Shown piece after piece: positions 33,644-51,025 of a DNA stretch of 51,099 nt (its first letter is position 1; every line of letters begins with the position of its first letter). The notes beneath the pieces are model-generated. The model was not told the DNA's origin. It made no database searches and saw only the letters and a program-made list of their open reading frames with translations. The position numbers and the translations under genes are program-made. Origin of the DNA: Cryomorpha ignava (GTDB taxonomy: Bacteria; Bacteroidota; Bacteroidia; Flavobacteriales_D; Cryomorphaceae); contig NZ_JAAGVY010000038.1 of assembly GCF_010686655.1 (NCBI RefSeq), positions 1 through 51,099 on the forward strand. The letters are read 5' to 3'.

Positions 33644-34088
33644 AGTCGTAGAGATGGGTTAAAGTTCCTAGCAAGAACAATTAAGTTTCAAATTACCCTC
33701 ATTTGAAATCTTTTTTTCCTAGTCTGCCAAGTCAGATTTTATGTCTTTCGTTTGTTCAGGGCAATCCTTCATCTCATGCATAATTAGCTATTATATAAAT
33801 AGATATCGAAAATTAAATGCGTATGTTTTACCATCCATCTCCATCATTACTTGTAAGAAGGCTCTGATAAAACTTATTTCCGAATTTGCAAAACAGCTTT
33901 TCTCTATCAATCTTAAAGTTAGTAGCTTTCGGTAATTAACGGCGGGATAACAATTACCATGTTAGAAACAATTATTTGGAGGAAAACCCCGATCTATTGG
34001 CGCACTTATTGATTGAGTTCATTCCGATGAACTCAGGGTTTGGTTCAAATTTCAATAAAAGTCTTTAAATTTTGAAAGAATTGTGCAC
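33644..34088. other. Intergenic region upstream of the FAD-binding protein gene
   Basis: This 445-bp AT-rich gap lies between divergent genes. It contains a perfect stem-loop at 34014-34035, listed separately, and a near -7 box TAAATTTTG, one base too long, about 15 bp before the downstream ATG. A 64-codon open frame within it has no protein-like features. Confidence 0.4.
34014..34035 (+). promoter_or_regulatory. Perfect stem-loop in the upstream region of the FAD-binding protein gene
   Basis: TGAGTTCAT and ATGAACTCA form a 9-bp stem around TCCG, 53 bp before the ATG. There is no following T tract. It may be an operator or a leader hairpin. Confidence 0.3.
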
Positions 34089-35840
34089 ATGAAGCTGGCA
34101 ATAATTGGAAGCGGAGCAACCGCGATTTATATTTTAAAACACCTTTCCGAGTATAGAGATCACGGCGTAAGTGAGATTCATATATTCGAAAAGGAATCGC
34201 TAATGGGAATGGGTATGCCTTACAATCCAATTTATACCGATAAATATCATTTGGCAAATATCACTTCCGAAGAAATTCCACTTTTAACTACTTCATTTTC
34301 GGAGTGGTTGCGCGCGCAGAGTGCAGAAGTGTTGAATGACCTCGCAATTGAGAGAGACCAAATAAGCGACAATGAAGTGTATAGCAGAATTGCCCTGGGC
34401 AGATATTTACACGATCAATACACGAAAATACTTGATGATATGGCGTCTGTGGGAACGCTTGTTTTTCAATATCCGGGTATAGAAGTAATAGATATTGCCG
34501 ATGAGCCAAATAAAAGTATGGCACGCATTTATGCATCTGATGGAAGCAATATGGTTTTTGATCATGTCTTCATTTCTACAGGCCATAACTTTGATCAACC
34601 AGATAAGCCAGCCAGCGGCTATTTTAAATCGCCCTGGCCAATTGAGAAAATATTGCCCCAAACCGGGACATTCTACAATTTTGAAATAGGACTGCTGGGT
34701 GCATCTCTTAGCGCCTTTGATGTGGTAACCAGTTTGGTTCATAGGCATGGTAGATTTATGAAAAGAGGTGATCGCATAATATTTAAAAAACATCCATCTG
34801 CACCTCAATTTAAAATAAAAATGCATTCAGCAGAAGGGTGGCTCCCCCACTTGCAGTACGAGCAGAAAAACCCTATGCGCGAAATCTATAGATACATTTC
34901 CAGAGATGGTCTTCTTAAGCTTTGTGACAATGAAGGAAGGCTTCGTATTGACGACTATTTTGATGCGCTTTGCCGACCCGTTTTGCGCGATTCCCTTTCG
35001 GCAAATGGATATGAAGAAGCGGCCGAACGGCTTAACGATCATACCTTTAAGTTTTCAGATTTTATTGAAAAAATGAGCGAGCGACATGAATATGAGAATC
35101 CGTTTGAAGGAATGGTGGAAGAGATGCGGGTGGCGAGCACTTCCGTAAATGAAGATATTCCCATTTACTGGAAGGAGGCTATGGACGACTTGATGTACAC
35201 CCTGAATTTTCATATGGAAATGCTGCCGGCAGAAGACCAGATTTTTTTCCGCGAAAGCGTAATGCCTTTTCTTTTGAATGTTATTGCGGCTCTGCCTTTG
35301 CAATCGGCTAAAATACTGCTCGCTTTGCACGATGCCGGAGTGCTTGATTTGATAAAAGGAAAAATTGAAAATATAGAAACTGACCAAAAATCTACCCGGA
35401 TTTCTGTGGTGCGAGAAGAAAATACCACGAATTACAATTACAGAATTTTTATAGAATGTGGAGGTGACAAAAAAATCAATTTGGAAAGTTATCCCTTTCA
35501 ATCGCTAGTGAAAGATGGTTTGGTTAGAGCTTCAAGCGCGGCTTTCGCCAATGTGGTTGCAGAGGATGATCGCACTGACGAAACCGTTTTTAAGGAAAAT
35601 GGAAAGTGGTTTAAAACCCTTCCGGGAATTGATGTGGACAGTGCATACAGAGTGATAGGAAGCGACGGGCGGGCAAACCCGCGTATATACGATCCCACAT
35701 TTACACATATTCAAGGTGTTAGACCTTATTCATATGGGTTGCAGGCGTGCAATACTACAGCCGAGATTTTGGTTCAGCATTTTATAAAAAACAGGGTTAG
35801 AAATAGCGAAGTACCAGTAAGTGCGAAAGACACTAATTAG
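34089..35840 (+). CDS. FAD/NAD(P)-binding protein, YdhS-like (NAD_binding_9 type)
   Basis: A 583-residue protein opening with a Rossmann dinucleotide-binding motif, LAIIGSGATAIYIL, then an acidic strand end IHIFEKE, as in FAD-dependent oxidoreductases. A second nucleotide-binding stretch IGLLGASLSAFDVV lies near residue 200. The long, less conserved middle and C-terminal parts (ending with RPYSYGLQACN) fit the YdhS/NAD_binding_9 family, whose substrates are largely unknown. A GTG two codons earlier exists, but ATG at 34089 is preferred. The last codons lie inside a 13-bp direct repeat flanking the hairpin element downstream. Confidence 0.82.
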   Translation: MKLAIIGSGATAIYILKHLSEYRDHGVSEIHIFEKESLMGMGMPYNPIYTDKYHLANITSEEIPLLTTSFSEWLRAQSAEVLNDLAIERDQISDNEVYSRIALGRYLHDQYTKILDDMASVGTLVFQYPGIEVIDIADEPNKSMARIYASDGSNMVFDHVFISTGHNFDQPDKPASGYFKSPWPIEKILPQTGTFYNFEIGLLGASLSAFDVVTSLVHRHGRFMKRGDRIIFKKHPSAPQFKIKMHSAEGWLPHLQYEQKNPMREIYRYISRDGLLKLCDNEGRLRIDDYFDALCRPVLRDSLSANGYEEAAERLNDHTFKFSDFIEKMSERHEYENPFEGMVEEMRVASTSVNEDIPIYWKEAMDDLMYTLNFHMEMLPAEDQIFFRESVMPFLLNVIAALPLQSAKILLALHDAGVLDLIKGKIENIETDQKSTRISVVREENTTNYNYRIFIECGGDKKINLESYPFQSLVKDGLVRASSAAFANVVAEDDRTDETVFKENGKWFKTLPGIDVDSAYRVIGSDGRANPRIYDPTFTHIQGVRPYSYGLQACNTTAEILVQHFIKNRVRNSEVPVSAKDTN

Positions 35841-35989
35841 AGTTTGTCAATAGAGTCAAGTGGCTGGATCATAAAGTTCAATAGCAAGGCGCATGCAGAA
35901 TTGAAAATCAAGGAGTTGACATTTGTCAATAACTGTTTTCAATTCAAGTGCAACGCCGATAGTGGACTTTATGGACAGACACTAATTAG
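35828..35989. mobile_element. MITE-like hairpin element flanked by 13-bp direct repeats
   Basis: AGACACTAATTAG occurs at 35828-35840, including the stop codon of the preceding gene, and again at 35977-35989. Between them, 35870-35973 folds into a long interrupted hairpin with nested arms: CATAAAGT/ACTTTATG, GGCG/CGCC, TGCA/TGCA, GAATTGAAAA/TTTTCAATTC and the central TTGACA-TT-TGTCAA. Such a design fits a small non-autonomous element with a target duplication. A structured RNA is the alternative. No open frame is present. Confidence 0.55.
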
Positions 35990-36068
35990 CGGATTTTTAA
36001 AATAAGAAATATTTCAATTGCCTGAATTTACGTTCGAACGCTGATTTTTGGGCTATTCTCAATAATAT

Positions 36069-49220: not shown

Positions 49221-49448
49221 AAGTATTACGGCTGATATGTAGCGAGTGCTTTTTTCATAATGATATAGGGTTACCCATTTAAATCACGAAACATATAATT
49301 CATCTTCCGCTCCGTATTATTTATGTCGCCCTTTCAGGTAGAGTGTCCAATCTCTCGTTCCAAAAACAAGTATATTTTTGAGCTTAATTTGAATGTTTTA
49401 AGCGTTTTTAATAACTAAATATTTTATGTGTTTTTTGCACTAAAAATC

Positions 49449-49479
49449 TTGTTTATTATATTGATTATCAGTATATTTA
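49449..49479 (+). promoter_or_regulatory. Probable internal IS promoter (TTG-N20-TATATTTA)
   Basis: TTG (49449-49451) and TATATTTA (49472-49479, one mismatch at the last base) are 20 bp apart. The ATG of the first IS frame lies 27 bp downstream. Confidence 0.45.
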
Positions 49480-49506
49480 AAGTCATTCTCACATAAAAAT
49501 AGAATT

Positions 49507-49683
49507 ATGAAAAAGACCAATATTGATAGTAAAACTGCTGGCTTAAAAAGTGAGCTTTCGAAGTTGAAAAAGGAAAATAAAAAACTATCTCAAAAACTGG
49601 AGAAGTCAAAATGCCAAACCGACCGATTAAAAAAGGAATTAAAAAAAAACGACGTTCTAAAAATACCCTTAAGCAAAAAGTAA
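49507..49683 (+). CDS. IS-encoded small coiled-coil frame (upstream partner of the transposase)
   Basis: A 58-residue Lys-rich protein with a heptad-like leucine pattern (LKSELSKLKKENKKLSQKLE), typical of oligomerisation segments of IS proteins. It overlaps the transposase frame by 73 bases and lies in the +1 frame relative to it. A slippery heptamer A-AAA-AAG at 49629-49635 and an A9 run at 49641-49649 fall inside the overlap. A -1 shift would fuse this coiled coil to the transposase. Confidence 0.6.
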   Translation: MKKTNIDSKTAGLKSELSKLKKENKKLSQKLEKSKCQTDRLKKELKKNDVLKIPLSKK

Positions 49684-50939
49684 GAACAATCACTTTCGAA
49701 CCTATCGCAAGATATGAATATTCTGAATTTGTTGTCCGATTAAGCACTACTCTATATACCCGTATTAATTGCGGATTCCGTCAGGTTGTTAAAATACTAG
49801 ATGTTATAAACGATGTTTTTGATGGAATCCTGGGTAAAATCCCTTGTCACAATACAATTGAGAATTGGGTTAAAAAATGCGGATTGAAGGTTTATGAAAC
49901 ATCTGGAGATTCATTGCAAGACACTAAATATGCACAGATCGTTGATGAAAGTATGATGATAGGAAGTGAGAAATTGCTACTCACACTCGGCGTCCCGGCA
50001 GAACACAAGGGACGGCCGCTCAATTCTAATGACGTAAGTATTCTTGATATAGCCGTAGCAAATAGTTGGAACGGAGAATCTGTGGGAACACAGCTAAAAA
50101 CCGCATCTGAAAAAGTTGGACATGATCCACTCTACGTTATTAGCGACAATGCCTCTATTATGAAGAAGGGAATAAGATGTGCAGATTTAATACATCAACG
50201 CGACATTAGCCATTCTTTAGGAATGTTTTTGGAAAGGACATATAAGAATGCGCCTGACTTTAAAAATTATACCAAATTAATGACTGAGCCCAAGTTTAAG
50301 TACAATATGAAAAAAATAGCCTATTTGCTCCCTCCTAAACAACGAACTATTGCGCGTTTCCTCAATATTTCGGAATGGGTTAAATGGTCTTCTAAAATGC
50401 TTGATGTTTATCACACACATCAAGCAGATGAGCGAGCAGTCTTCTCATTTGTCCCCGCAAATGCATCGCTAATAGACGAGTTATCAGAAGTTACGGAATG
50501 CATAAGAAGCATTGAAGATCTCTGCAAGAATAAGGGGCTGTCAAAAGAAACAGTAGCCAAATGCCATCAAGAGATCAAAAAGCATCTATTTCACGGTGAC
50601 TATAGAATGATCCAGTTAGGTGAAACTATATTTAAATTCCTAAATGATGAAGCCAAACTTATAGAAGCCGATACGGCAAATAATAACTCTTCAGACATTA
50701 TCGAATCCCTCTTTGGGAAATATAAAGCTCGCAAATCGCCCAATAAACTACATGGCGTAACATCATTTATTCTCTTTATGCCACTTTACACCGAGCTTAG
50801 TAAGAACGCTCAAAATAAGTTCGACTTTAAAGCAGCATTACAAGATACGCGTATAAGACAAATTAATGTTTGGAAAAAGGAAAATCTAACACCAAATCTT
50901 ATGCAACTGCGAATTAATTGTCTGAAAAAAGTAGCATGA
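49611..50939 (+). CDS. Putative DDE-type transposase
   Basis: A 442-residue protein with a basic N-terminus (about 1-25), a helical region with a likely HTH (CHNTIENWVKKCGLKVYE) and an RNase-H-like core. Candidate acidic residues are D in YAQIVDESMM near residue 111, D in YVISDNASI near 175, and E in SSDIIESLFGKYKARK near 382. The last motif, D-x-I-E-S-x-F-G-x-Y/F-K, is common in transposase catalytic ends. The gene fills most of an element with terminal inverted repeats. ATG at 49611 allows independent translation; frameshift fusion from the upstream frame is also possible. Family not recognised. Confidence 0.75.
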   Translation: MPNRPIKKGIKKKRRSKNTLKQKVRTITFEPIARYEYSEFVVRLSTTLYTRINCGFRQVVKILDVINDVFDGILGKIPCHNTIENWVKKCGLKVYETSGDSLQDTKYAQIVDESMMIGSEKLLLTLGVPAEHKGRPLNSNDVSILDIAVANSWNGESVGTQLKTASEKVGHDPLYVISDNASIMKKGIRCADLIHQRDISHSLGMFLERTYKNAPDFKNYTKLMTEPKFKYNMKKIAYLLPPKQRTIARFLNISEWVKWSSKMLDVYHTHQADERAVFSFVPANASLIDELSEVTECIRSIEDLCKNKGLSKETVAKCHQEIKKHLFHGDYRMIQLGETIFKFLNDEAKLIEADTANNNSSDIIESLFGKYKARKSPNKLHGVTSFILFMPLYTELSKNAQNKFDFKAALQDTRIRQINVWKKENLTPNLMQLRINCLKKVA

Positions 50940-51025
50940 TCTCGGGAACATCAGATTGGACACCCTACCTTCCAGGTACTGTGTAAAAATCCAAATTTAT
51001 TTCGACATTTTTTTATGTCGTATAT

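Follow-up and report, generated by a model that had tools for sequence, protein, structure and literature searches.

A mobile palindromic element at a stop codon of Cryomorpha ignava, most likely an ISNCY-type MITE, with a conserved folded core resembling ERIC

The window, by which we mean the whole stretch of 51,099 nucleotides analysed here, carries a gene for a FAD-NAD(P)-binding protein whose stop codon is also the insertion site of a palindromic element (Table 1). The list of open reading frames holds no frame of 60 aa or more inside this element, and the gene is transcribed along that strand of the element which folds better. The covariance-model match within the element comprises positions 35859-35982.

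Table 1. Features at the insertion site (positions in the window).
Feature	Position	Strand	Basis or remark
FAD-NAD(P)-binding protein gene, stop = insertion site (PF13454 NAD_binding_9)	34083..35840	+	585-codon frame; start codon assigned mechanically
Left target site duplication TAATTA	35834..35839	.	flank comparison of copies; empty-site comparison at a different family copy
Stop codon TAG of the gene	35838..35840	+	TA from the duplication, G from the element
Mobile element (143 bp)	35840..35982	+	concerted variation of the flanking TANNTA among copies
Left end GAGTTTGTCAATAGAGTC	35840..35857	+	agrees in 16/18 bases with the inward-read right end of the L355 ISNCY element
Conserved loop motif 1, 5' side, CAAGGCG	35885..35891	+	alignments A1 and A3; corresponds to AAGGCG in the ERIC model
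Conserved apex: CAAGGAG, hairpin TTGACATTTGTCAA, TAACTG	35909..35935	+	alignments; corresponds to GGAG-hairpin-TGAC in the ERIC model
Conserved loop motif 1, 3' side, CAACGCCGATA	35951..35961	+	alignments and ERIC-model alignment
Right end, inward reading GTGTCTGTCCATAAAGTC	35965..35982	-	agrees in 16/18 bases with the left end of the L355 ISNCY element and in 13/18 with ISRle10
Right target site duplication TAATTA	35983..35988	.	flank comparison of copies

The initial annotation of this DNA had pointed to a 13-bp direct repeat, which is present (AGACACTAATTAG at 35828-35840 and 35977-35989, with 136 bp in between), and had rightly taken the left copy for the true end of the reading frame. As the duplicated target, however, 13 bp is too long: the real duplication measures 6 bp (TAATTA), because six bases co-vary on both sides among the copies of the element. 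At the window copy itself CTAATTAG is common to both sides, and the length of 6 bp rests on the other copies; the AGACAC belongs to the element end in the right repeat and to the gene in the left one. The G at 35840 is both the third base of the stop codon and the first base of the element. Since the base that follows the right duplication is also a G, the stop before the insertion was TAG as well and the protein was left unchanged. Just outside the left duplication the end of the gene, GAAAGACAC (35825-35833), matches the right end of the element, GACAGACAC, in eight of nine bases, a likeness that may be due to chance or may be the relic of an older copy. The nested hairpin reported earlier is real too, although not with the size of 104 nt given for it, as the hairpin fills most of the element. 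The stretch 35826-35996 has a folding energy of -61.7 kcal/mol (z -7.9); 200 dinucleotide shuffles averaged -32.0 (sd 3.75), and all of them folded less well.

That a non-autonomous palindromic element had inserted at the stop and spared the protein was borne out by its many copies, by the target duplications and by uninterrupted sites in two relatives at another locus. The outcome that would have contradicted it, namely the absence of other copies together with relatives that lack the element and yet retain both repeats, did not occur: a BLAST search returned 52 pieces in the C. ignava genome. With R1, a covariance model built from 24 copies of this genome, at least 49 element sites were counted there (64 matches, 15 of which represent the other strand of a listed site), a lower bound, as the best 150 of 2285 candidates were scored. 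Over 147 bases, identity among these copies reaches 100%. The bases that vary in step on both flanks of the aligned copies are TANNTA. Among the 144 of 214 copies with both ends recognisable (up to three mismatches allowed in the ends), an exact 6-bp duplication was found in 65 and a duplication with one mismatch in 28, whereas a control in which the right flanks were taken from other copies yielded 5.9% exact and 22% one-mismatch pairs. In a stricter set of 78 copies the site mostly reads Y-TANNTA-R, with C or T before it in 64 and G or A after it in 62.

Nine joined flank pairs of copies from genome G006 were compared with genomes G005, G006 and G007 in search of empty sites. At one of them (L123) both relatives, G005 and G007, are uninterrupted and have a single TATTTA where G006 has TATTTA, the element and AATTTA. 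At another (L126) only the gene end aligned in G005 and G007, and the adjoining DNA beyond it is without the element; R1 detected no element in the four G005 and G007 loci that correspond to these two copies (best match 9.9 bits). The remaining seven pairs had no match in G005 or G007. For the window locus itself an empty site is not obtainable, because the seven other genomes of the host family contain no relative of the gene for the FAD-NAD(P)-binding protein. Thus, the element is mobile, it duplicates its target, and with its length of 143 bp, many copies, terminal inverted repeats, target duplication and lack of a transposase it has the features of a MITE.

Counting the C. ignava genome itself, 7 of 8 genomes examined in the host family carry such elements, as do 11 of 150 in the order and 14 of 395 in the phylum (model R2, built on the element family; strict filters and eight candidates scored per genome in the last survey). 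Named records that bear the apex include, among the matches listed, Flavobacteriales MAGs, Brumimicrobium, Saprospiraceae and records labelled Bacteroidales and Paramuribaculum. The window element had no match in plasmids and phages, nor did the apex pattern in viral sequences; two matches of the 18-nt end to phage-like viral contigs (L300, L301) are without a partner end and were set aside as chance. In tandem arrays adjacent elements have one duplication in common, and longer relatives have additional hairpin modules in their arms. Relatives enlarged by inserted hairpin modules occur in L047, L048, L044, L045 and L054; those in L047 and L048 have exact duplications and lengths of up to 629 bp. 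In a genome of another family (G515) related elements were seen with different ends (L329, L339 and L341-L343; GGGGGCTTTGA... / ...TCAAAGCCTCC in several), which suggests that the core rides on other end types as well.

The position of the window copy at a stop codon appears to be part of a wider pattern. A stop is overlapped by 34 of the 78 strict copies (24 at the right, 10 at the left); among the YTANNTAR sites located outside frames in all DNA examined, this holds for 39 of 213 (Fisher P 2.7e-5), and in a smaller first null set for 6/45 (P 6e-4). An opposite-strand frame ends between -30 and +300 nt from the right end of the core in 129 of 188 copies, the frames in this count being mechanical, and the distance is 0 in 30 and 4 in 27 copies, the two registers that let a stop begin with the TA of the duplication. 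For stops that take their G from the element, the base originally following was A or G in 12 of 13 cases on the right and in 7 of 9 on the left; in the other three it was not, so the insertion there shortened or changed the frame. Validated insertions are enriched at stops. The enrichment can be explained by the target preference together with the survival of harmless insertions, and additional selection at stops is possible. The right end is preferred (24 versus 10, P 0.024; 57 exact right-end cases among the 129 in the looser count). In the C. ignava genome, however, near-identical copies occur among the five cases on the left and diverged ones among the six on the right, which speaks against reading a mechanism into this preference. 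Considered as a rule, a target that presents TAR on both strands, combined with ends that start with G, can make transposon insertion at stop codons harmless.

The ends of the element provide a link to a candidate transposase. Among 20 stretches around perfect ends, most of them without a near partner, one from G006 (L355) proved to hold an ISNCY element whose ends, GAGTCTGTCCAT and ATTGACAAACTC, are separated by about 1.63 kb, and a transposase of 455 codons, which scored 377 bits with NCBIfam NF033593 (ISNCY; cut-off 325) and contains PF01609. Its left flank is TACATA; its right flank stops after TA at the end of the contig, where the right duplication is not visible. In 20000 shuffles of the right end of the window element the agreement with the left end of this insertion sequence never exceeded 12/18 (real 16/18). 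Four further ISNCY elements, in records of Rhizobium, Aminobacter, Marinobacter and Sinorhizobium, have the ends GTGCCCGTCCATAAAC (two), GTGCGCGTCCATAAAC or GTGCCCATCCAGAAAC, and duplicate TAGTCTA (7 bp) in three cases and TAGCTA in one. The window element thus has ends that match those of ISNCY elements and a duplication of the TA-N(2-3)-TA form (TANNTA here), and on this comparison of sequences it is most likely an ISNCY-type MITE, presumably moved by an ISNCY enzyme.

There are points against this assignment. Three of the four known elements duplicate 7 bp rather than 6, the sole full ISNCY copy stops at a contig end, and of 18 genomes only G006 yielded a relative of the L355 transposase, although copies in C. 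ignava are up to 100% alike. The same protein search, which covered the L355 lineage of ISNCY (E up to 1e-5, with 40 small contigs of C. ignava read as N), detected no relative of this transposase in the C. ignava genome and hence, for this lineage, no complete parental element with its duplication. As autonomous elements, the long copies of this genome (425, 629 and 700 bp) were discarded: they have paired duplications, exact for 425 and 629 bp and with one mismatch for 700 bp, and hold no frame of more than 92 codons. A pair of ends in G006 separated by 12 kb was likewise rejected, as was a pair in G007, since neither has matching duplications. A covariance-model search with default filters did not find the structured core in L355 or in L365-L368. 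Elsewhere in the window (49611-50939, with flanks from about 49350 to 51000) a transposase-like protein of 442 aa lies between the inverted ends GTGTCCAATCT / AGATTGGACAC; it has no Pfam match and matches ISH6 weakly (16 bits, cut-off 240).

The interior of the element is the more conspicuous part. In 50 copies from many genomes of the Bacteroidota the covariance analysis that had been advised for the hairpin showed changes on both sides in 28 of 31 pairs, so that the pairing is maintained while the bases change; within the C. ignava copies changes on both sides occur in 21 of 38 consensus pairs. The most conserved columns include the motifs CAAGG, AAGGAG, TGACTG and AACGC, with the reservation that copies fetched by the exact apex pattern are biased toward the apex and those found by the model are not; the apex TAACTG of the window element reads TGACTG in most rows of alignment A3. 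Of 205 cores, 200 have the better fold on the plus strand (mean -42.8 versus -31.9 kcal/mol), and the consensus energy of A3 is -21.0 on this strand against -4.3 on the other. Within the plus-strand structure G-U exceeds A-C by 214 to 13 in A3 and by 99 to 4 in A1, counts that refer to a structure chosen on that very strand; for pairs chosen on the other strand the numbers are 66 A-C and 10 G-U, and for the pairs common to both strands 9 to 1. In Brumimicrobium, four groups, each comprising two or three genomes, have the element at the same gene's stop with arms that differ, and the 12 rows of this type in A3 retain 26 to 31 of the 31 pairs. The window element had no match in Rfam at gathering level. 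In L119 (1420-1466, genome G087) an Acido-Lenti-1 RNA (38.2 bits, cut-off 37) adjoins a copy of the core. A small peptide starting at the apex ATG was discarded, as by eye its frame is broken in several copies. Integron attC sites have the boxes GTTRRRY/RYYYAAC; these were sought by eye only, and the target duplications speak against such a site.

We infer that the core is selected as a folded strand, either RNA or single-stranded DNA. Most likely it would be recognised in this form by some factor and serve either the spread of the element or the host at gene ends. The initial annotation had also proposed that the folded RNA could protect or terminate the transcript; a simple role as a 3'-UTR hairpin is not the obvious reading, because in 24 of the 34 strict copies that overlap a stop the gene runs against the better-folding strand.

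A relation to the ERIC repeats of enterobacteria was indicated by covariance models in both directions. R3, made from 10 ERIC copies (alignment A4), ranked the element first of 15 matches in the 51-kb window (25.8 bits, E 1.5e-4, next 13.0) with the loop motifs mutually aligned, and in 50 kb of E. coli the pgk-fbaA ERIC came first, though weakly scored, with R1 (15.6 bits, E 0.14, next 12.2) as well as with R2 (16.6 bits, E 0.055, next 13.1), where the E-values of all three models are rough. In 16 further loci R3 gave its 12 highest scores (38.9 to 15.3 bits) to elements, each from a different one of the 15 Bacteroidota loci, and at most 13.6 bits to anything else. In 30 loci, which contain 31 known copies, the 29 best of 46 matches were element copies (37.9 to 20.7 bits); the best match that is not an element is a plain hairpin in L116 (18.9 bits), and the other strand of the element hairpins appeared once, with 9.1 bits. 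The copies of L325, L338, L329, L127 and L109 remained in or near the noise. Profiles of sequence only are less clear: that of A3 placed ERIC first at a marginal E of 0.04-0.05, that of A1 did not place it first, and the ERIC profile (A4) missed the window element and matched other members of the family marginally (E 0.27 or worse).

Taken together, we consider it probable (about 0.8) that the element, as a MITE, depends for its movement on an ISNCY-type DDE transposase acting in trans, and that it carries a structured core. The enzyme would recognise ends of the GWGTYTGTC type and insert into Y-TANNTA-R with duplication of TANNTA. Because this target contains TAA or TAG on both strands, stop codons would be natural landing sites, where the G of the element end, or the duplicated TAR, would keep or remake the stop and the insertions would hence be harmless and persist. 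The core of about 90-120 nt between the ends would form, on the plus strand, one long hairpin with two conserved internal loops, and is probably kept by selection and probably related to the enterobacterial ERIC core. Against this count the ERIC ends, which are unlike those of the element, the sequence-only ERIC profile that misses the window element, the 18.9 bits of the plain hairpin in L116 and the possibility that the stop enrichment partly reflects the survival of harmless insertions. A simpler alternative is a MITE with a passive interior, the palindrome of which is maintained by template-switch correction between the arms, and the likeness of which to ERIC is a convergence of long hairpins. 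The arms of DNA palindromes can indeed correct each other by an established mechanism, and the marginal sequence-only link and the L116 score fit this alternative too. Such correction should, however, erase mismatched internal loops, yet the loops are among the most conserved columns. The excess of G-U points the same way, but is partly circular given the choice of strand, and the consensus energies are less so; moreover, the other strand reaches at most 9.1 bits with R3 where the 29 best copies have 20.7-37.9. We therefore regard a passive interior as rather doubtful.

An element domesticated by the host, with a hairpin kept for stabilising or ending the transcripts of the abutted gene, is in our view unlikely. 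It would agree with the recurrence at the same gene and the retained pairs in Brumimicrobium, and with the effect of ERIC at the 3' ends of Yersinia enterocolitica genes, where transcript levels are altered via RNase E cleavage according to a review (PMC10969869). The orientation of the 24 genes that transcribe the worse-folding strand contradicts it, as do the 44 of 78 strict copies that overlap no stop. Mobilisation by a single-strand (HUH/RAYT) mechanism, as for REP sequences, appears highly improbable in view of the clear 6-bp target duplications and the terminal inverted repeats, even if one strand folds better and GTAG REPs often provide TAG stops to flanking ORFs (PMC3733652). The ISNCY-type MITE with a probably selected core remains the preferred reading.

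In comparison with known systems, the element resembles the ISNCY insertion sequences (ISRle10, ISMlo5 and two others) in terminal repeats of the GTGYCYGTCCATAAA type and a duplication of TA-N2 or N3-TA, and differs from them in that they carry a transposase. MITECca01 of Cardinium (PMC9769881) is a MITE of about 240 bp in another Bacteroidota genome and derives from the IS982-family ISCca4. REP sequences are palindromes of 20-40 bp (PMC3733652), to be set against 143 bp and 6-bp duplications here. The literature consulted, mainly open access, described neither this family nor an ERIC-like core in Bacteroidota among the matches listed; papers on a Porphyromonas gingivalis MITE (PMC4596501) and on stem-loop families (PMC2267715) may be relevant to both. 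The Rfam model sX9 (RF02228) matches the opposite strand of the apex of L327 (35.4 bits) and L330 (30.5 bits), in both cases below the cut-off of 44; the cores of L327 and L330 (1552-1592), copies from family f29, thus resemble sX9 on the other strand. About 60 nt of the L327 core match repeats of E. coli at about 83-88% and of Klebsiella aerogenes at 90%; this 60-nt repeat, which we take to be BoxC, has matches in 5375 of 5426 E. coli genomes. R2 found nothing in three enterobacterial loci of this repeat, and R3 gave 11.4 bits, below noise, in one.

The closest likeness is to ERIC/IRU, an intergenic palindrome of about 125 bp with the same folded strand and the same order AAGGCG - stem - AGGAG - hairpin - TGACTG - stem - ACGCA. 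The window element shares with it the core fold and the loop motifs in the R3 comparison and not the terminal repeats, since the A4 consensus begins with ATACTC... and its ends are by eye unlike GAGTTTGTC.. / GTGTCTGTC... The range of ERIC is given in a review (PMC10969869) as Enterobacteriaceae and Vibrionaceae. The covariance models match in enterobacteria and in Bacteroidota, and kinship of the cores is likely rather than established; the element is best filed as an ISNCY-type MITE. An ERIC-like core in Bacteroidota hints that the family is older and wider than usually assumed. More tentatively, and at somewhat less than even odds, ERIC, the sX9/BoxC-like repeats and the phylum-wide Bacteroidota family might share a single folded module, ancient and specific to one strand, whose two internal loops are conserved and which moves between vehicles with different ends, ISNCY ends being one of them; its loops would be read by a conserved factor, and ERIC would have originated outside the enterobacteria. 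ERIC repeats, which duplicate TA where the present family duplicates TANNTA, are widely used for strain typing, and to our knowledge both their mover and the reason for the conservation of their interior are open. With its ERIC-like core, 6-bp duplications, identifiable type of transposase and near-identical copies, the Bacteroidota family would allow both mobilisation and the function of the folded core to be tested.
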